20,463 nt of DNA from IMG/VR virus record IMGVR_UViG_3300009320_000135, positions 1 to 20,463 of that record; one strand, written 5' to 3'. The position numbers and the translations under genes were made by a program. This DNA is from a virus. Position 1 is the first letter of the stretch; every line of letters starts with the position of its first letter. Under the pieces are notes generated by a model, which was not told where the DNA came from, ran no database searches, and worked only from the letters and a program-made list of their open reading frames with translations. Shown here in pieces: positions 2,696 through 10,147 of this stretch.

Positions 2696-4903
2696 ATGAG
2701 ACAACAAATACTTGAAATGGTGGAACGGGTTGCATTGCAAAAGAGCACCAAAAATGAAGTGTTGTGGCGTGATATATACCCCGCTTACGAAACAGGTTTA
2801 CAGCGTGACACCGACATTAGTTACGAAACATATAAGGATATGATGAGAGATCCTAATATTGTATCATCACTAAAATTAAGAGCGGTAATGACACTACCTG
2901 ATTACCATGTTGAAGCCGGTGGTGAAAGTGAAGAGGATAAGGAAAATGCTTTTATAGTCAGATACATACTAGAACACATGGAAGGCAGTTTTTTGAGCTG
3001 GTTACAAGAGCGTTTATACCATAGTCTAATGTTGAACGGATTTGTAGTCAGTGAGATTAAACAAAATGTGCTGGAGTACAGCGGGTTAGAAGATAGAACA
3101 CTTGTAGGTATTGATAACATAAAAATAAAGCCGGTTGAATCGTTTGACGGGAATATTGTGTTAGACGACTACGGAAATATTAAAGAGATAAAACAATGGC
3201 AATCAGGTGAATTGGTTTCATGTCCCGCTGACCGCACCTTATATCTAAAGATAGGTGGTGCACCTGATAATCCATACGGCACTTCCGTATTAGATAGCAT
3301 ACATGACGCTTGGAAGAGTAAGCAACAAGTATTCAGAGCATGGCAATTATATCTTGACGCTTTTGCCGGCGGTAGAACGGTTGCGAAACTTGAAGATAGC
3401 AGATACCGTCAGGGTAAAGCACAAGCGGAAAAGATAGTCAAGGCAATGAGCACCGGCACTTATGTCGTACAACCTGACTGGATGTCGATTGAAAGAACGG
3501 AAGTGTCAGGCACTACAGCAAACCTGTATAAGGAAGCAATTACATATTTAGACAAACAGATACGGTTGGGAATACTGATGTCAGAAACCGTAAATGCGGA
3601 AGGTCACTATCAAGGTAGTTATGGATCTCAAAAAGCACAACTATCAATAATACAAACAGCATTTGCCGGTTATGGTGAAGCACTTGCAGAAGAGATAAAC
3701 GAGAAGGTGGTGCAAAGACTCATGAAGTGGAACGAGCTCAAAGGTGCAAGACCCCGCTTTGTTTCCCGCCGTGAATCCATAACAGATATTGAGGATGTAT
3801 TAGAGGGAATTACACAAATGTTAATGCAAAGCAATACCTTAAAATTACCGGAAAGCACCGAAATAGCATTACTAAACACACTGCTATCAAAGATAGGAGT
3901 ACAAGAGATAAACGAAACTGAAATAGAAGAGGTAGAAGAGGAGTCGATAATAGACATACAACCTATTGACTTAAACGAGCCGGATCTACCTGAAAGTATA
4001 GCAATGGCTGGAACGAAAGAACCGGCGGGATATACTGACGCTGAATTGAAAGCGGAAAAAAAGCAGTGGATTGAGATAGAAAACAAAGCTATTGCTGACT
4101 ATCAAAGGGCGTGGAAAAAAGCAATACCCTCAATATTTGAAGCACTGCTAGACGGGCTGGTTACAAAATCCGGCGGGTGGAAAAATATATCGATTGCAAG
4201 CATGAGAAAAGTAATAGAAAAGGCAATCACAAAAGACGGTGGAAACCTACGATCCGTAATCGAGCAACTCTTATATAAAAGGTGGACTGACGGACAGCTT
4301 GAAACCGCACTGAAAATAGGTACAGGTGTCAAGGCTGGGATGTCTATTACTCACGAAAAGATAGATCCTACAAGGGCGTTAGAGATACTTTCACAGGATG
4401 TATATATGTTACTGAAAAAGCGGTACGCAACGGTTGCCGGCAAAGTCTATCACTTGGTGCGAAATGCACTACAGGCAAACATATCAACGCAAGACGCTTT
4501 CAGGCAAATTTCAGCACTACTATCGGAAGTCGGTAAGGAAAGCGAGGCAAGGACTGTACTCAACACTTCACTTGCAAGGGCGTACAATGATGGTGCAATG
4601 TCGAGCTTTGCACCGCTGGAAAATGCAGATACAATCAAGCGTGAATACAGAACGGGGGATGTTGTAGGTTACGGATTTAAGGCTGTAATGGATGATGTTA
4701 CAACCGATCTATGCAAGGCATGGAACGGTAAGTTTTTTAAGGTTGATTGCAAACACAGGGTAAGTCCACCGCTTCACTATAATTGCCGGTCAATATTAGT
4801 ACCAATATTATACCCCGAAACACCTTACGGTGGTGGTGAATATATGAGTGACAAAGAGGCGGGGGCGTTACCCCGACCAATGGAAGGGTTTGGTGAAGGA
4901 TAA
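2696..4903 (+). CDS. Portal protein fused to a MuF-type minor head protein
   Basis: 735 residues in one uninterrupted frame, starting at ATG 2696 behind an AGGA ribosome binding site. Residues about 20-400 look like a Mu gp29/SPP1-type portal (MMRDPNIVSSLKLRAVM near the N-terminus, YLKIGGAPDNPYGTSVLDSI about 183-202, AGGRTVAKLED about 224-234). Portals form the dodecameric DNA channel at one head vertex. An acidic linker (about 402-435, EETEIEEVEEE-like) leads to a helical region and then, at about 565-708, a MuF head-morphogenesis domain ending in PPLHYNCRSI. C673, C685, H687, H694 and C697 could bind a metal. In Mu and SPP1 these two functions are separate genes; here they are one polypeptide. 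The reading frame shows no sign of an assembly error at the junction. Downstream come the accessory genes, not the protease. Confidence 0.88.
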   Translation: MRQQILEMVERVALQKSTKNEVLWRDIYPAYETGLQRDTDISYETYKDMMRDPNIVSSLKLRAVMTLPDYHVEAGGESEEDKENAFIVRYILEHMEGSFLSWLQERLYHSLMLNGFVVSEIKQNVLEYSGLEDRTLVGIDNIKIKPVESFDGNIVLDDYGNIKEIKQWQSGELVSCPADRTLYLKIGGAPDNPYGTSVLDSIHDAWKSKQQVFRAWQLYLDAFAGGRTVAKLEDSRYRQGKAQAEKIVKAMSTGTYVVQPDWMSIERTEVSGTTANLYKEAITYLDKQIRLGILMSETVNAEGHYQGSYGSQKAQLSIIQTAFAGYGEALAEEINEKVVQRLMKWNELKGARPRFVSRRESITDIEDVLEGITQMLMQSNTLKLPESTEIALLNTLLSKIGVQEINETEIEEVEEESIIDIQPIDLNEPDLPESIAMAGTKEPAGYTDAELKAEKKQWIEIENKAIADYQRAWKKAIPSIFEALLDGLVTKSGGWKNISIASMRKVIEKAITKDGGNLRSVIEQLLYKRWTDGQLETALKIGTGVKAGMSITHEKIDPTRALEILSQDVYMLLKKRYATVAGKVYHLVRNALQANISTQDAFRQISALLSEVGKESEARTVLNTSLARAYNDGAMSSFAPLENADTIKREYRTGDVVGYGFKAVMDDVTTDLCKAWNGKFFKVDCKHRVSPPLHYNCRSILVPILYPETPYGGGEYMSDKEAGALPRPMEGFGEG
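4895..4900 (+). promoter_or_regulatory. Ribosome binding site deciding the start at 4905
   Basis: GAAGGA lies four bases before ATG 4905, just upstream of the portal-MuF stop. It favours 4905 over the in-frame ATG at 4848, which would add 19 residues overlapping the portal gene and has no comparable site. Confidence 0.6.
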
Positions 4904-4904
4904 G

Positions 4905-5903
4905 ATGTGCGAAGCAGAAAAGGATAATATCGAAAAGACAGCGTTCCAAAAAAACAACGAAACGGTAGAGCGTGGCAAACAATATTTGAGTAAGAATTGC
5001 AAGGTAGTGTTTGAGGTTAGTAAAACACTTATCGAAAGGTTACGAGCAATAGATGTTATGCTTGCAGGGGATGATGAGTGGGATAGGTATTGTCACGAGG
5101 TCATGGGTGATGTCACGGATTTTAGAAACCTTAATATAGAACAAGTACAAAATTTACTAAAGCGAGGATTATTGCTATTAGATAAACACGGTAAACACTT
5201 AAACATATCCCTGCCGTTCCTTTCAACCGGTGGGTCGAAAGCAGTACGGTTGTCAGTTGCAAGAACCATAATCGAACAATTAGGTGGCAACCGCTTCAAG
5301 GCAATGACAGGTGCACATACTTTTGTGGATAGTGGGAATGGTGTTTCTTTTCAGATAGGAAAAAATCCTAAAGGCGTGACTCATGTTAAGATAACGCTTG
5401 ATAAGACTGATACATATAGAGTAGAGTTTTACATAGGTTCAACGATTTCAACTATTATAACGAGGTGTTATGCTAATATGTTGTCAAGCGTTTTCAAGCA
5501 CTCAACCGGATTGGACACACATTTGAGCCGTCAATCAGATACGGTAAGAGCGTCAGGCTTCTATATAGGAAAAACAGCGGAAGCAATGGCATTTCAATCA
5601 TCAGAGGGGAGATTTTCCCGTATTAAAGCCGACAGGGGTTCTGCTGGTGCTGACTTTGAAGAGAGAAACGGAAGTCTGTATGTAGATGGTAGCAAGGTTC
5701 TCAAAGGCTGGGAAAGTGCGTTTGGGTGGTATTGGTTTGCAGTTGAAAAATTAGCAGGGAACATCAAGGGTAAGGCAATATGGTTCGGATTTGTTCAGGG
5801 TGAGTTTAATGAGTGGGGTACGTTTTCAGAAGCAGAGTTGGATTCCATAAGTGATATTTGGGAATTATCAAAAGAGGCTTTATTGAGGTCAGGAAGAAGG
5901 TAG
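4905..5903 (+). CDS. Accessory protein with polyvalent-protein-like and DUF2958-like regions
   Basis: 332 residues. The first 100 are helical and charged. Residues about 131-207 (FKAMTGAHTFVDSGNGVSF, GVTHVKITLDKTDTYRVEF, NMLSSVFKHSTGLDTHL) match my memory of an uncharacterised module with the pattern 'NFV...LSFxIG...VxHVKITLxxxDTYxVEF' that recurs in large phage and plasmid proteins. Residues about 270-320 (WYWFAVE, then IWFGFVQGEFNEWGTFS and EAELDSI) resemble the small DUF2958 domain seen in mobile elements. No catalytic motif, membrane segment or signal peptide is visible. It follows the MuF domain by one base, where phages often carry proteins that are packaged and act early in infection. 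I infer a host-takeover or anti-defence role, without direct evidence. Confidence 0.7.
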   Translation: MCEAEKDNIEKTAFQKNNETVERGKQYLSKNCKVVFEVSKTLIERLRAIDVMLAGDDEWDRYCHEVMGDVTDFRNLNIEQVQNLLKRGLLLLDKHGKHLNISLPFLSTGGSKAVRLSVARTIIEQLGGNRFKAMTGAHTFVDSGNGVSFQIGKNPKGVTHVKITLDKTDTYRVEFYIGSTISTIITRCYANMLSSVFKHSTGLDTHLSRQSDTVRASGFYIGKTAEAMAFQSSEGRFSRIKADRGSAGADFEERNGSLYVDGSKVLKGWESAFGWYWFAVEKLAGNIKGKAIWFGFVQGEFNEWGTFSEAELDSISDIWELSKEALLRSGRR

Positions 5904-5911
5904 GGTATCTC

Positions 5912-6079
5912 ATGAAAAGAAATAAAAGAGAAATTAAAAGTTCTGCGTGGTGGAGATTACCCCCTGAAAATGTAAAAGAAGGATTCTGGAAAGATTGTAT
6001 TTGCAGTACAGGATTTTTCTTGGAGTTGCGAGGCGGTGTTTGGACTGCATTTGTTATTGACGACCATAATTATTATTAA
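5912..6079 (+). CDS. Small protein of unknown function (55 aa)
   Basis: Starts at ATG 5912, eight bases after the preceding stop, with AGGG about seven bases upstream. An upstream in-frame ATG at 5858 would add 18 residues overlapping the previous gene and is less likely. The product is basic at the N-terminus (MKRNKREIK) and then rich in aromatic residues (SAWWRLPPENVKEGFWK, GVWTAFVIDDHNYY), with two cysteines in CICS. It looks like a small compact beta-containing domain. I do not recognise a family. It lies between two accessory genes of unknown function and probably travels with them. Its size leaves some doubt whether it is expressed. Confidence 0.55.
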   Translation: MKRNKREIKSSAWWRLPPENVKEGFWKDCICSTGFFLELRGGVWTAFVIDDHNYY

Positions 6080-6081
6080 CT

Positions 6082-6106
6082 GTTTTGCATATAAATAGTG
6101 TAAAAC
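6082..6106. promoter_or_regulatory. AT-rich dyad between accessory genes
   Basis: GTTTTGCA (6082-6089) and TGTAAAAC (6099-6106) form an 8-bp stem with one G-U pair and a 9-base loop. It lies in the 50-base gap before the 547-residue gene, 18 bases ahead of that gene's AAAGGA site. There is no run of T after it, so it is not a standard terminator. It may be an operator, an mRNA-processing site, or chance. Confidence 0.25.
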
Positions 6107-6129
6107 AATAACAAACGAAAGGAACGAAA

Positions 6130-7773
6130 ATGAGTAGCACAAAGAAAATGCTTGCAAAGGGTAAGCAGTATGTCAAAGAGGTCTTTGGTGGGGTGGACAC
6201 CAAGCGATTTAGGAAACAAGTAAAGTTATCAGAAAACCTAATAAGAGGGTATGTAGATATGCTAATGAATGATCCTGAATTAGAGTGGTTTCCGCTTTAC
6301 ACAAAATCACACACGGAAGCAGAGTGTTTAGCAGAGCTTAAAGAGATATTTATAGATAGAGGGCTGGACACAGAGAGCATCCTAAAAGTCTATCAGCGAA
6401 TAGTAGCAGATCCATATACACAAATGATGACAAAATCTGTAAGAGCAAGTGGTGAATCTGAAAAAGCGGTTGGTAAGTACACGATATATTTAGTACAATC
6501 ACGCAACTTGTGTATATATGCAGGATACTGCGATAGCGTTGCTGTATGGGAAGGACTGACACAGCTTGGCATCAAATGGTACATGCCATCACAGGAAGCA
6601 CGAAACGCATACGACTCACTTGAGTTTGAAATGGATGTAGAATACTGGTTGAAAAAGCTCAATTTTTCGCATGGATCGAAACATATCCGTATGGAATACA
6701 ACGGCTGGTCAAACTGGGAAACTTGGAATCTTATGCTTTGGTTTGGTGACAATAAAGCCGGTATGCAGTCGGTGTATCGAACCTACAAAGGCACTACAAT
6801 AACAGCGGAAACCGCAAAAGCAATTATGTCTGAAATGTATCCAAGCGGTACACCTGATATGAAAGTCGGTCAAATGGGTGCGGTGGACTGGTCGGAAGTT
6901 GCAACGGCACTCAATGATGATATTGAAAGTGGATCGTACAACTTTGCAAGGCGTTCAGGAAACATGGTAAGAGCTGAAAGTATATTTACGGAAGAGGCGT
7001 ATGCTGAAATAGTAAGGGTGTTAGAGCAAAATGAGACGAGAATAATAAGAGCGAGATACCCCGCATCGGAAGCGAGTAATATACTATGTAATGAAAACGG
7101 GATTAACTATTCGGTTGCAAAGTGGGGTTTCACGAGGTGGATGGATAGTTACCGACTGGATGACGGCACGGAAGGGTTGCTGTATAACCCTAATAATTTT
7201 TCTACAGGCACTGACAAAGCAAAGCTATCAAAAGCACCCGCAAAGATACAGCTTGGTGGTCAATACCCTTACCATATATTCGAATTATCAGGGGATGTTC
7301 ATACATACGCAAGAGGTAATGCTAACGATTATAGTGAAGCAACGGCACGGAAACTGTACGAATCAGCGTTAGGTAAGAATATAACAAGGATAGAGCGTAA
7401 TTATGAAGAGTATGGTGCGGTAACTTATATAGTAACTACTAATACAGGGGGGCGTGTAGGTATTACTTTCGAGGGTACACCGAACATACCAAAGGTTGGT
7501 TATTCGAGATCCGGCAACGGTGTCAGAATGAGTTACAACGGTTGGTCAAACTGGGACACTTGGACTGTATCAATGTATTTGAGGGCTGACGAGCCAGTTT
7601 ACCGCTTCTACCTGCAGTTAATAAAGAACACGAGAATAGATAAGTACACCGCAAAAGGTATAGCTTTGGAATGTAAAAGTCATAGTAGTGACGGTTATAG
7701 TTGGGATAAAGTAAATATAGAGGCGGTAAACTGGAGTGAAATAGCAAGCATGATGATTGAAGATAAGGGTTAG
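6130..7773 (+). CDS. Accessory protein with duplicated NGWSNWxTW domain, unknown function
   Basis: 547 residues from ATG 6130, with AAAGGA seven bases upstream. The protein contains the same domain twice, at residues about 187-264 and 466-545. Each copy opens with RMxYNGWSNW(E/D)TW, has a middle 'TAK(A/G)I' segment and ends with A-V-(D/N)-WSE(V/I)A. This resembles an uncharacterised phage and plasmid family with an NGWxNYETWxxxLW signature. Between the copies is a stretch with TARKLYESALGKNITRIERN and VTYIVTTNTGGRVGITFEG. The N-terminal 180 residues are helical and unrecognised; GKQY near residue 12 recalls a GKQY in the 332-aa neighbour, a weak hint of kinship. There is no enzyme motif, membrane segment or signal peptide. 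It sits in the head gene cluster, just before the capsid protease, but looks unlike any structural protein. Confidence 0.75.
   Translation: MSSTKKMLAKGKQYVKEVFGGVDTKRFRKQVKLSENLIRGYVDMLMNDPELEWFPLYTKSHTEAECLAELKEIFIDRGLDTESILKVYQRIVADPYTQMMTKSVRASGESEKAVGKYTIYLVQSRNLCIYAGYCDSVAVWEGLTQLGIKWYMPSQEARNAYDSLEFEMDVEYWLKKLNFSHGSKHIRMEYNGWSNWETWNLMLWFGDNKAGMQSVYRTYKGTTITAETAKAIMSEMYPSGTPDMKVGQMGAVDWSEVATALNDDIESGSYNFARRSGNMVRAESIFTEEAYAEIVRVLEQNETRIIRARYPASEASNILCNENGINYSVAKWGFTRWMDSYRLDDGTEGLLYNPNNFSTGTDKAKLSKAPAKIQLGGQYPYHIFELSGDVHTYARGNANDYSEATARKLYESALGKNITRIERNYEEYGAVTYIVTTNTGGRVGITFEGTPNIPKVGYSRSGNGVRMSYNGWSNWDTWTVSMYLRADEPVYRFYLQLIKNTRIDKYTAKGIALECKSHSSDGYSWDKVNIEAVNWSEIASMMIEDKG
6697..6727 (+). 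repeat. 31-bp near-identical repeat, copy 1
   Basis: This stretch encodes YNGWSNWETW in the first domain copy of the 547-aa protein. It matches 7534-7564 at 29 of 31 bases, in the same orientation, 837 bases apart. The surrounding domain copies have diverged much more than this core. Confidence 0.85.
7534..7564 (+). repeat. 31-bp near-identical repeat, copy 2
   Basis: Second copy of the repeat at 6697-6727, encoding YNGWSNWDTW in the C-terminal domain. The two differences are a C/T at a synonymous site and an A/C that changes Glu to Asp. Homologous recombination between the copies would delete 837 bases in frame. Confidence 0.85.
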
Positions 7774-7784
7774 GAAAGGATAAC

Positions 7785-8816
7785 ATGGCAAGGTCAATAA
7801 TAAAAATAGCAGAAGCCGGTGACTTTGACGCTTCAACGGGGGCGGTAAGTATATCCGAAAACGACCTTGTAGGAATGGTCAACGGCTTCGAAGAGGCAAA
7901 AAGCAAGGGTGTTTTACCGGCACTTAAATACACTCATGCTCAAGGCAAAGACAGCATAGGAATCGGCAAGATAACCGATATATGGATCGAAGATGGTTGG
8001 TTAAAAGGTAGAGCTGACATACTTGACGATAAGTACACCGATCAGATAAACAGCGGTATCTTGGAAGCCGTGTCTTTAGAAGCTGATGTCGGTAAGACGG
8101 CATACGGTGAAACCGAATATCCATTTTTGCTTACAAGCGTTGCACTATTGCCGGCTGGTGAATTTCCGGCAATCGGTGGTGCTATGATAGAGTCGCTTAT
8201 TGCAAGCAAAAGCAAGGATAGTATTGTAGTCTATTTAGGTAAAAAAGACGATAAGGAAAAAGAGACAACCAAAACAGACACAAAAGAGGATGTCGAAAAG
8301 GTAAGTTTGACAGATGTTATGGAAGTGCTTATAAAGGTAGTTGACAATCAGAATCAGCTACTTGAATACATAGCATACAAAGACAAACCTGAAAAGATAG
8401 TCGAAAAGGACATAGAGAAAATAGAGGATGATGATCAGATAGAAGCGAAACGGTTACGGGTAAGGAATACAGACAGAATAGTTGCAAACTTGCGGGGTCA
8501 AGGCACGGGTCGAATGCGAATAAAGCAGTCTGAAAGTGATAAGTATAGACGGCTTTTGTCAACGCTTGACAACAAAGACGCTGATAATGTTGCACAATTC
8601 CTAATGAACGAATTACCGGTAATATATCCTGAAAGAGAGATCATGCACTCAAATAGCACTGCACGGAAAACCACAATGTCAGCACCGTGTGACGAGTTGG
8701 ATCAAAAGGTGCGGTTGCGAATGGACACAAAGCATGAAAGTTATGATGTAGCTACAAGCAAAGTGCTTGAAAGCGACATTGAATTAAGGGAACGATACAG
8801 AAAGGAAATGAGGTAG
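7785..8816 (+). CDS. Prohead protease/scaffold protein (Mu I-like)
   Basis: 343 residues from ATG 7785, behind a strong AGGAAAGGA-type site. Residues 1-135 resemble Mu gpI-like capsid proteases: ALKYTHAQGKDSIGIGKITD holds H51, followed by DGWLKGRADI and then GILEAVSLEADVG with S97, and a beta-strand segment FLLTSVALLPAGEFPAIGG. H51 and S97 are the likely catalytic pair, by analogy with this family. From about 145 the protein becomes highly charged and helical (KDDKEKETTKTD, DKPEKIVEKDIEKIEDDD), as expected of an internal scaffold, and the C-terminus (YPEREIMHS onwards) could contact the capsid. It would template prohead assembly and then degrade itself and the scaffold. Its place just before decoration and capsid genes supports this. 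Whether the protease is active is not proven. Confidence 0.8.
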   Translation: MARSIIKIAEAGDFDASTGAVSISENDLVGMVNGFEEAKSKGVLPALKYTHAQGKDSIGIGKITDIWIEDGWLKGRADILDDKYTDQINSGILEAVSLEADVGKTAYGETEYPFLLTSVALLPAGEFPAIGGAMIESLIASKSKDSIVVYLGKKDDKEKETTKTDTKEDVEKVSLTDVMEVLIKVVDNQNQLLEYIAYKDKPEKIVEKDIEKIEDDDQIEAKRLRVRNTDRIVANLRGQGTGRMRIKQSESDKYRRLLSTLDNKDADNVAQFLMNELPVIYPEREIMHSNSTARKTTMSAPCDELDQKVRLRMDTKHESYDVATSKVLESDIELRERYRKEMR

Positions 8817-8819
8817 AAC

Positions 8820-9212
8820 ATGGCAGATCTATCAATACCGGAAGGACATACTATAAGACTTGCGGGTCTGTATGCCGGTGAAGATATTACCAAATACCGC
8901 TTTGTAAGATGGACTTCCGCCGGAAGTACAACAATGGCAGATGACGGACACTTGGTAGGAATATCAGAAGATACAATAGACGATACAAAGTCAGTACCTG
9001 TATGTGTAGCAGGGGTAACATTTTTGGAAGTCAATGCGAACGGTGCGGATAACAACATAGCAGTAGGTGACTTTTTGACAGGTACTAACAACGGAATCGG
9101 TGTGCTTGCAGATACAGATTTGCAGGAGATCGGTGCAGTTGCACTTGACAGTGCTACGGCGGATGGCGTTCATATCCCTGTAGTTAAAATATCCGGAATT
9201 TACGGAGTATAG
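8820..9212 (+). CDS. Capsid decoration/cement protein (DUF2190-like)
   Basis: 130 residues, starting three bases after the protease/scaffold stop, with AGG in the site upstream. It is a small all-beta protein: an N-terminal strand region (EGHTIRLAGLYAGEDITKYRFVRW), GHLVGISEDT, then VAGVTFLEV, a glycine-bearing turn VGDFLTGTNNGIGVLAD, and a C-terminal EIGAVALDSATADGVHIPVVKI. The 'GD.L...NGIG......IGAVALDSATADGVHIPV' pattern is typical of DUF2190-type capsid cement proteins, which bind the outside of the expanded head and stabilise it. Its place between scaffold and major capsid genes is the classic one for a decoration protein. Confidence is good for role and fold, lower for exact family. Confidence 0.78.
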   Translation: MADLSIPEGHTIRLAGLYAGEDITKYRFVRWTSAGSTTMADDGHLVGISEDTIDDTKSVPVCVAGVTFLEVNANGADNNIAVGDFLTGTNNGIGVLADTDLQEIGAVALDSATADGVHIPVVKISGIYGV

Positions 9213-9226
9213 GAAAGGGGTAAACA

Positions 9227-10147
9227 ATGCCATCAGCATTAACACAAATGCAGATAACAAAAAATGTACTTCCTATATACTGGGGGTACGAATCTCAACG
9301 ATACATCAGTACAATGATTGCACCGAACACCGCAACAACAAAACAGTCAGGGTACATTATCAGTTTAGGTGACGCATACTTGAGACCGGTTAATGGAGAG
9401 GTTGCAAGCACTTCACCGGCTTCCGCAATCGATGACGAGTTTTCAACAACTGAATACAACCTGAAAAGATACCGCTGGTCTTACAAAATAGCAGACGAGG
9501 ATAAGGAAGAGTGGGAATTGCCGGTTGAAAGTGCACAACTTGCTATGAGAGCACTGACAGCACAATCCGCAGTCAACCGTGAAATGTTGCTTTCAGCATG
9601 GATGACAGATACAGACAACTTCACAAACAAAATAGACATCACAGCCGACAGCACTTCATGGGATGACGCAAGTGCAACGATTGACGAGGATATTTGGGAA
9701 CAAGAGGAAGCAGTCAGATCCGCAATCGGTGTTAGACCGAACACAATGGTTGTAACAGCCGACACATACCGTTATTTGAGAATTTGGGTGAAGAATTACC
9801 TTGAGAATTCCGGTAGAGTGAAAATGCCGACAGATAAGGACATTGCTGACTTTTTCGGTTTCGACAACTTCGTTGTAGCAACCGCAAGATATATCAGTAG
9901 TGCGAAAGGTGCAACCACTGCATATACCGATTGTTGGGGTAGTGAAGGTTGCTGGTTGCTGTATGTAAAGAGTTCACCAAAGGAAGAGCCGGCGTTTGCT
10001 TGCACGGTTACAGGTAAAAAGGATCTTGAATTCAAGACATACCGTGAAAATAATCCTGAAGCAGATGTTCACATACTAAAAGCTAATATGCAAGTTAAGA
10101 TACTCAACGAGACATCCGGTGCTTATTTGTATAATGTGCTTGCATAG
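9227..10147 (+). CDS. Major capsid protein (HK97 fold)
   Basis: 306 residues from ATG 9227, with a strong AGGAAAGGGG site. The sequence shows hallmarks of an HK97-like capsid subunit: an N-terminal segment leading to a long extended loop region (EFSTTEYNLKRYRWSYKIAD), a long helix with LAMRALTAQSAVNREMLLSAW, and in the axial domain RPNTMVVTADTYRYLRIW, followed by IADFFGFDNFVVATARYISS and WLLYVKSS. No long N-terminal delta domain is seen, in keeping with scaffolding being supplied by the preceding gene. It forms the icosahedral shell. A GC-rich hairpin lies 21 bases after the stop and may set it apart from the less-needed connector genes. Confidence 0.92.
   Translation: MPSALTQMQITKNVLPIYWGYESQRYISTMIAPNTATTKQSGYIISLGDAYLRPVNGEVASTSPASAIDDEFSTTEYNLKRYRWSYKIADEDKEEWELPVESAQLAMRALTAQSAVNREMLLSAWMTDTDNFTNKIDITADSTSWDDASATIDEDIWEQEEAVRSAIGVRPNTMVVTADTYRYLRIWVKNYLENSGRVKMPTDKDIADFFGFDNFVVATARYISSAKGATTAYTDCWGSEGCWLLYVKSSPKEEPAFACTVTGKKDLEFKTYRENNPEADVHILKANMQVKILNETSGAYLYNVLA

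Follow-up and report, generated by a model that had tools for sequence, protein, structure and literature searches.

Head proteins that are packaged and cleaved are already known from phage T4, from giant phages and from phage P1. In T4, the internal proteins IPI-III and Alt are cut by the prohead protease gp21 and ejected; Alt is cleaved at ITE and LTE, cleavage in the giant phage SPN3US occurs at AxE, and the cut is always after Glu (PMC5694885). In SPN3US and phiKZ, ejected head proteins carry multiple prohead-protease sites of the AxE/SxE type. The P1 accessory proteins DarA and DarB are packaged and reach the capsid; DarA is thought to be processed, and P1 has an N-terminal DarB signal. 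Injected proteins with multiple domains are known as polyvalent proteins (PMC5512222); they combine unrelated domains in one polypeptide encoded beside portal or terminase genes, and are presumed to be delivered with the DNA (Iyer et al. 2017). As ejected head proteins share no common sequence, identifying them is difficult. Here we analyze three accessory genes, P0001, P0002 and P0003, in a 20,463-nucleotide stretch of DNA from a virus (the window; IMG/VR record IMGVR_UViG_3300009320_000135, positions 1 to 20,463), which is a fragment of an uncultured virus. We consider it moderately probable, on sequence evidence, that P0001 and P0003 serve as precursors for cargo carried inside the capsid, which the prohead protease would cut apart and which would be ejected with the DNA.

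The locus shares with the T4 internal proteins a head-gene context, small non-structural proteins and candidate prohead-protease sites, and one of its protein families, phrog_9437, itself occurs in the gp21 setting of T4-like contigs. It differs in that T4 internal proteins are single-domain proteins with a short N-terminal targeting peptide, whereas the window has several modules per precursor, a protease from another family, and no recognised targeting peptide in P0001 or P0003. As in polyvalent proteins, unrelated domains share one polypeptide beside portal and terminase genes. Unlike in those proteins, the joints look cleavable in trans by a head protease, rather than in cis by a metallopeptidase, and the typical domains (ArdC, MPTase, PBECR, N6A methylase and others) were not found in P0001-P0003 by Pfam and NCBIfam scans. 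The original suggestion of polyvalent-type modules is partly supported: each large polypeptide combines at least two unrelated domains (three in P0001, at least five in P0003), but these scans found none of the characteristic domains ArdC, MPTase, PBECR and DUF2958. SPN3US and phiKZ belong to a different phage group and differ in their site type and in their protein families, and there is no homology to the P1 Dar proteins as far as tested.

The window's gene order is TerS, TerL, a 73-amino-acid (aa) membrane protein, portal-MuF, P0001, P0002, P0003, protease, cement, major capsid protein (MCP) and tail genes. Open reading frames (ORFs) of 332, 55 and 547 aa had been reported between the portal-MuF and protease genes, and we confirm their coordinates and flanks: P0001, a three-module accessory protein (4905-5903), P0002, a 55-aa orphan (5912-6079), and P0003, an accessory protein of five or more modules (6130-7773), all on the plus strand, as are the window features from portal to MCP given below. 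A plausible ribosome-binding site lies 5′ of each. Profile scans gave no structural family match for any of the three, and P0002 matched no family at all in scans that included Pfam and NCBIfam.

P0001 and P0003 are each a chain of several small phage modules, of a kind mostly encoded as solo proteins, and these modules meet at a recurrent motif. With a slash marking the predicted cut, [STG][KDN]x[VI]R/[ALM][SE] is present at all six homology-defined module joints of the two proteins. The strict motif has six matches in their 879 aa, compared to a shuffle expectation of 0.007, a statistic that overstates its strength because the motif was defined after the joints were seen; in the remaining window proteins, it has zero matches in 5,820 aa. 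The minimal [VI]R falls inside the joint windows, which make up 11% of the sequence, in six of its nine occurrences (P ~1e-4). A cut after Arg would yield N-termini reading LSVARTI, MEYNGW and MSYNGW, and the solo homologues natively start with MSVAKTI, MEYNGW and MSYNGW. The linker DNA has a mean identity of 0.45, with Arg and Ser codons drawn from both codon sets; the DNA is thus not repeated and the similarity lies at the protein level, which speaks against copied DNA repeats. The recurrent motif resembles prohead-protease processing sites.

P0001 begins with module D1 (residues 11-107; 4935-5225), followed by candidate processing site 1 (SKAVR/LS, residues 111-117; 5235-5255), which lies immediately 5′ of a phrog_9437 module (residues 117-207; 5253-5525). 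The phrog_9437 match spans profile positions 2-98 of this 98-aa family and is far beyond chance (E = 4e-22); its core is the 'VKITLxxxDTYxVEF' stretch that had been noticed as a module, and which proves to be real. The module is 37-44% identical to solo phage proteins. In an AlphaFold model, it folds autonomously (predicted local distance difference test score, pLDDT, 94-98) between linkers, at residues 98-113 and 208-247, that are predicted to be disordered; an autonomous fold with disordered linkers on either side supports a cargo role, as does the position of P0001 and P0003 between portal-MuF and protease. A resemblance of this fold to the T4 MotA C-terminal domain was weak and is not usable (1kaf, Z = 5.7, 3.4 Å over 81 residues; Foldseek E = 0.8). 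Candidate processing site 2 (SDTVR/AS, residues 211-217; 5535-5555) lies immediately 3′ of the module, and is followed by a C-terminal module with no assigned family (residues 217-332; 5553-5900). A DUF2958-like C-terminus had been suggested here and is not borne out, as a Pfam search of the whole of P0001 gave no DUF2958 match (E up to 5) and the C-terminal piece on its own gave no Pfam match at all (E up to 10); the AlphaFold model of this part was too poor for a DUF2958 fold comparison.

P0003 contains module D2 (residues 40-102; 6247-6435), candidate processing site 3 (TKSVR/AS, residues 101-107; 6430-6450), module M3 (residues 106-182; 6445-6675) and candidate processing site 4 (SKHIR/ME, residues 183-189; 6676-6696), the last coinciding with the point where copy 1 of DUF7249 natively starts (PF23907; residues 189-263; 6694-6918; supported by alignment and a pLDDT of 75-91). 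Candidate processing site 5 (GNMVR/AE, residues 277-283; 6958-6978) lies 3′ of this copy, and a region with no assigned family (residues 282-461; 6973-7512) leads to candidate processing site 6 (GNGVR/MS, residues 462-468; 7513-7533), which likewise coincides with the native start of copy 2 of DUF7249 (PF23907; residues 468-544; 7531-7761). The double DUF7249 match is far beyond chance (7.5e-16, 59.4 bits compared to a curated cut-off of 27) and substantiates the duplicated NGWSNWxTW domain described earlier. Between the two copies, a glyoxalase-like half at residues 386-470 is a weak match and a lead only (PF00903, E = 0.0074, below the cut-off; Z = 5.1). The three accessory genes had been said to encode separate polypeptides, which is correct as far as the genes go; the product of either large gene, however, is probably a precursor of several pieces.

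The same design occurs in a second phage, the viral contig L002 (IMGVR_UViG_3300009128_000130), where portal-MuF is followed by a 99-aa gene, the protease, a 404-aa protein, cement and MCP, in this order. The portal-MuF proteins are 31% identical, and the sole DNA match between the window and L002 is 285 base pairs (bp) at 98% identity (4934-5218 in the window, 10000-10284 in L002), which is D1 and stops just before the linker. Outside the window, D1 was found in L002 only among the viral contigs and in none of the genome contigs. This DNA comparison demonstrates that one protein module was recently transferred between two otherwise diverged phages. The remainder of the 404-aa protein holds two copies of D2 (identity 37% and 27%, E = 3e-9 and 8e-5; phmmer 3e-12), and the 24-aa core of M3 resembles an insert in the C-terminus of the L002 protease, with moderate support (Smith-Waterman score 52, 0/2000 shuffles; BLAST E = 0.03). 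The L002 module borders read FSRRIRAY/KG, LSRRQIY/AD, FSRRNTNQIY/AE and LRRIAY/GD, and the [IA]Y-type border has four matches in L002, all in the protease C-terminus and the 404-aa protein. Thus, the border position is kept and the last residue is switched from Arg to Tyr as a set, which is expected if the sites follow each phage's own protease. The C-terminus of the 404-aa protein is a copy of the tail of the phage's own protease/scaffold (Smith-Waterman score 65, 0/2000 shuffles), and possibly serves as a packaging or targeting tail. The L002 protease (L002:8451-9992) carries an additional module ahead of its scaffold-like tail, between two IY-type sites. Three L002 module pieces that misaligned with the DUF7249 alignment were excluded from it. 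A search for further relatives of the portal returned L002 alone among viral contigs and none among genome contigs, so that these two phages are the only members of the window group found. Among 80 loci with TerL relatives, those retrieved included 19 with a portal/MuF-profile match and three, counting the window, with an MCP match; these matches were too few to survey the gene neighbourhood.

A comparable arrangement occurs in marine T4-like contigs. The phrog_9437 scan found about 14 T4-like contigs in which this family forms the C-terminal end of multi-module proteins of 170-1043 aa, in most of them directly behind the portal and a gp21-type prohead protease; the head genes are T4-like (portal phrog_213, 1.7e-66; protease phrog_207, 2.5e-53; MCP phrog_138). 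The module linkers include EGKLTE, ESVNE and KINE. Using the consensus [ILV]xE, which was taken from the literature rather than fitted on these contigs, we found a match just before phrog_9437 in 14/14 proteins, compared to a fraction of 0.22 of the other windows in the same proteins; the stricter [ILV][TN]E matched there in 10/14, compared to a background of 0.06. These are related phages whose counts are not independent, so the statistics overstate the strength of the pattern. Overall, [LIV][TN]E was observed 31 times with 6.4 expected, and 26 times with 15.8 expected in the portal control. Many small neighbouring genes start with MIKLKDLLxE, similar to a T4 targeting peptide. In contigs L105, L106, L110, L112, L140, L147, L153, L161 and L173, the protease is followed by a varying series of small genes with this MIKLKDLLxE start, together with LTE-, VNE- or INE-linked multi-module proteins, the latter often with DUF3008 as the first module. 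The small-gene series and the multi-module proteins are apparently an arsenal of internal head proteins.

The setting of phrog_9437 behind a gp21-type protease and the joint motif of the window together revive the idea that P0001 and P0003 are packaged. Module identity, position in the head cluster, the joint motif, the parallel L002 design and the D1 transfer are read from the DNA and its translations. From these, we infer that P0001 and P0003 would be produced along with the head genes and would then enter the prohead, where the protease would cut the linkers at ...[VI]R/[ALM][SE]... and release the modules inside the head with native N-termini. The freed modules would be ejected with the DNA and may act early in infection. 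Packaging had been proposed originally from the polyvalent-type modules and from the MuF domain, which the literature had been said to link to delivery; the MuF link is not key, since MuF is fused to the portal rather than to an effector, no effector domain is joined to MuF, and the accessory genes are separate ORFs. The proposal is now more strongly supported, on other grounds, namely the joint motif, L002 and the T4-like contigs.

Several observations weigh against the proposed packaging and cleavage, in addition to the post hoc definition of the strict motif and the relatedness of the 14 T4-like cases. No packaging tag is identified in P0001 or P0003: a scaffold-like tail was not found by Smith-Waterman comparison with shuffles, and the one shared N-terminal string, GKQY, is not significant (411/3000 shuffles). 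The window's protease is identified from weak profile matches, and the P0003 structure model is mostly of low confidence (mean pLDDT 54). Finally, most homologues of phrog_9437 and DUF7249 in other phages are stand-alone genes of 75-120 aa outside head clusters, the finding that the original prediction had named as its own refutation. The solo phrog_9437 and DUF7249/phrog_871 proteins are direct homologues of the modules; among isolated phages, members of both families are encoded on their own, at ~80-100 aa, within early or accessory regions, as in Rhodobacter phage RcSpartan, Pseudomonas phage Paride, Sinorhizobium phage phiM12, Rhizobium/Agrobacterium phages and a Microcystis phage, with DUF7249 also in a Synechococcus phage. 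DUF7249 is solo at 40/42 viral-contig loci, the exceptions being the window and contig L214, and it co-occurs with T4-like head genes at 0/41 other loci.

Two alternatives stand out, namely polyvalent proteins that stay uncut and late accessory proteins that do not enter the virion. P0001 and P0003 could be effectors that are packaged and injected whole, with the recurrent linkers serving as flexible hinges between domains. The multi-domain make-up, the head-cluster context (PMC5512222) and the predicted disorder of the linkers all fit this explanation, but hinges require no fixed [VI]R/[ALM][SE], the motif switches as a set between the two phages (VR versus IY) while its place is unchanged, and known polyvalent domains were not found; we regard it as unlikely. 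A marginally less likely explanation is that they are moron-like accessory proteins of the late operon, which function inside the infected cell at a late stage without ever being packaged. Here, the early or accessory location of the solo homologues, away from head clusters, becomes an argument in favour, as does the exchange of D1 as a cassette, in the manner of morons. Nevertheless, in two phages the modules are fused into head-cluster proteins with site-like joints, and T4-like phages show an independent arrangement behind gp21 with gp21-type sites.

The same location in the head cluster, together with the scaffold-like tail on the L002 404-aa protein, could indicate scaffold or minor structural head proteins, whose modules serve head assembly and are then removed or kept as structure. 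We find this improbable, as no structural family was matched, numerous unrelated phages encode the modules as solo proteins away from their head clusters, and related head clusters, such as that of Rossellomorea phage phiT1, lack the accessory insert and its modules. It is more improbable still, to the point of being barely credible, that the linkers are remnants of shuffled modules or that the D1 block stems from a metagenome contig joined wrongly in assembly. The two contigs, which do not align elsewhere, match at 98% over 285 bp, the type of repeat able to mislead an assembler; however, the linker DNA is not repeated, and both contigs have reading frames that continue through the D1 block, a single portal, protease, cement and MCP each in identical order, and one site type that is the same on either side of D1.

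If P0001 and P0003 are indeed cleaved cargo precursors, a broader principle may be put forward more tentatively: phages would string effector modules in precursors, the maturation protease would release them in the prohead, and the linkers would co-evolve with each phage's protease. Modules could then be swapped between distant phages with their linkers re-tailored, which suggests a general route by which phages mix effector modules. Cargo whose joints carry the site of its own protease would be detectable from sequence alone, the protease site specificity of uncultured phages would be readable from genomes, and phrog_9437 and DUF7249 would gain a testable role as capsid cargo. A literature search of incomplete coverage returned no phage cargo polyproteins with phage-specific joints, and no role for phrog_9437 or DUF7249.

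The accessory genes are flanked upstream by a 735-aa portal (Portal_Mu) fused to MuF (2696-4903; PF06074, 1.8e-30; Phage_Mu_F PF04233, 1.9e-7). Downstream lie the 343-aa head maturation protease/scaffold, the presumed processing enzyme (7785-8816; phrog_3894, 7e-4; phrog_976, 1.4e-3), which is 24% identical to its L002 orthologue with H51 and S97 invariant in both, a cement/scaffold-type head protein (8820-9212; phrog_673, 3e-10) and the MCP (9227-10147; phrog_1005, 1.5e-36). Elsewhere, L130 (1926-8903) encodes a large protein with phrog_9437 close to its end, beside a 1183-aa protein with a Zeta_toxin/AAA_33 kinase domain. On the 455-kilobase contig L214 (4630-7782), DUF7249 lies within a 1051-aa protein, two genes 5′ of a TerL-like gene and beside a 1478-aa protein; the similarity of M3 to the L214 protein is not significant. 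At the start of the window, positions 1-321 encode the C-terminal portion of a DNA methylase of the N6/N4 type (PF01555), directly 5′ of the packaging genes.

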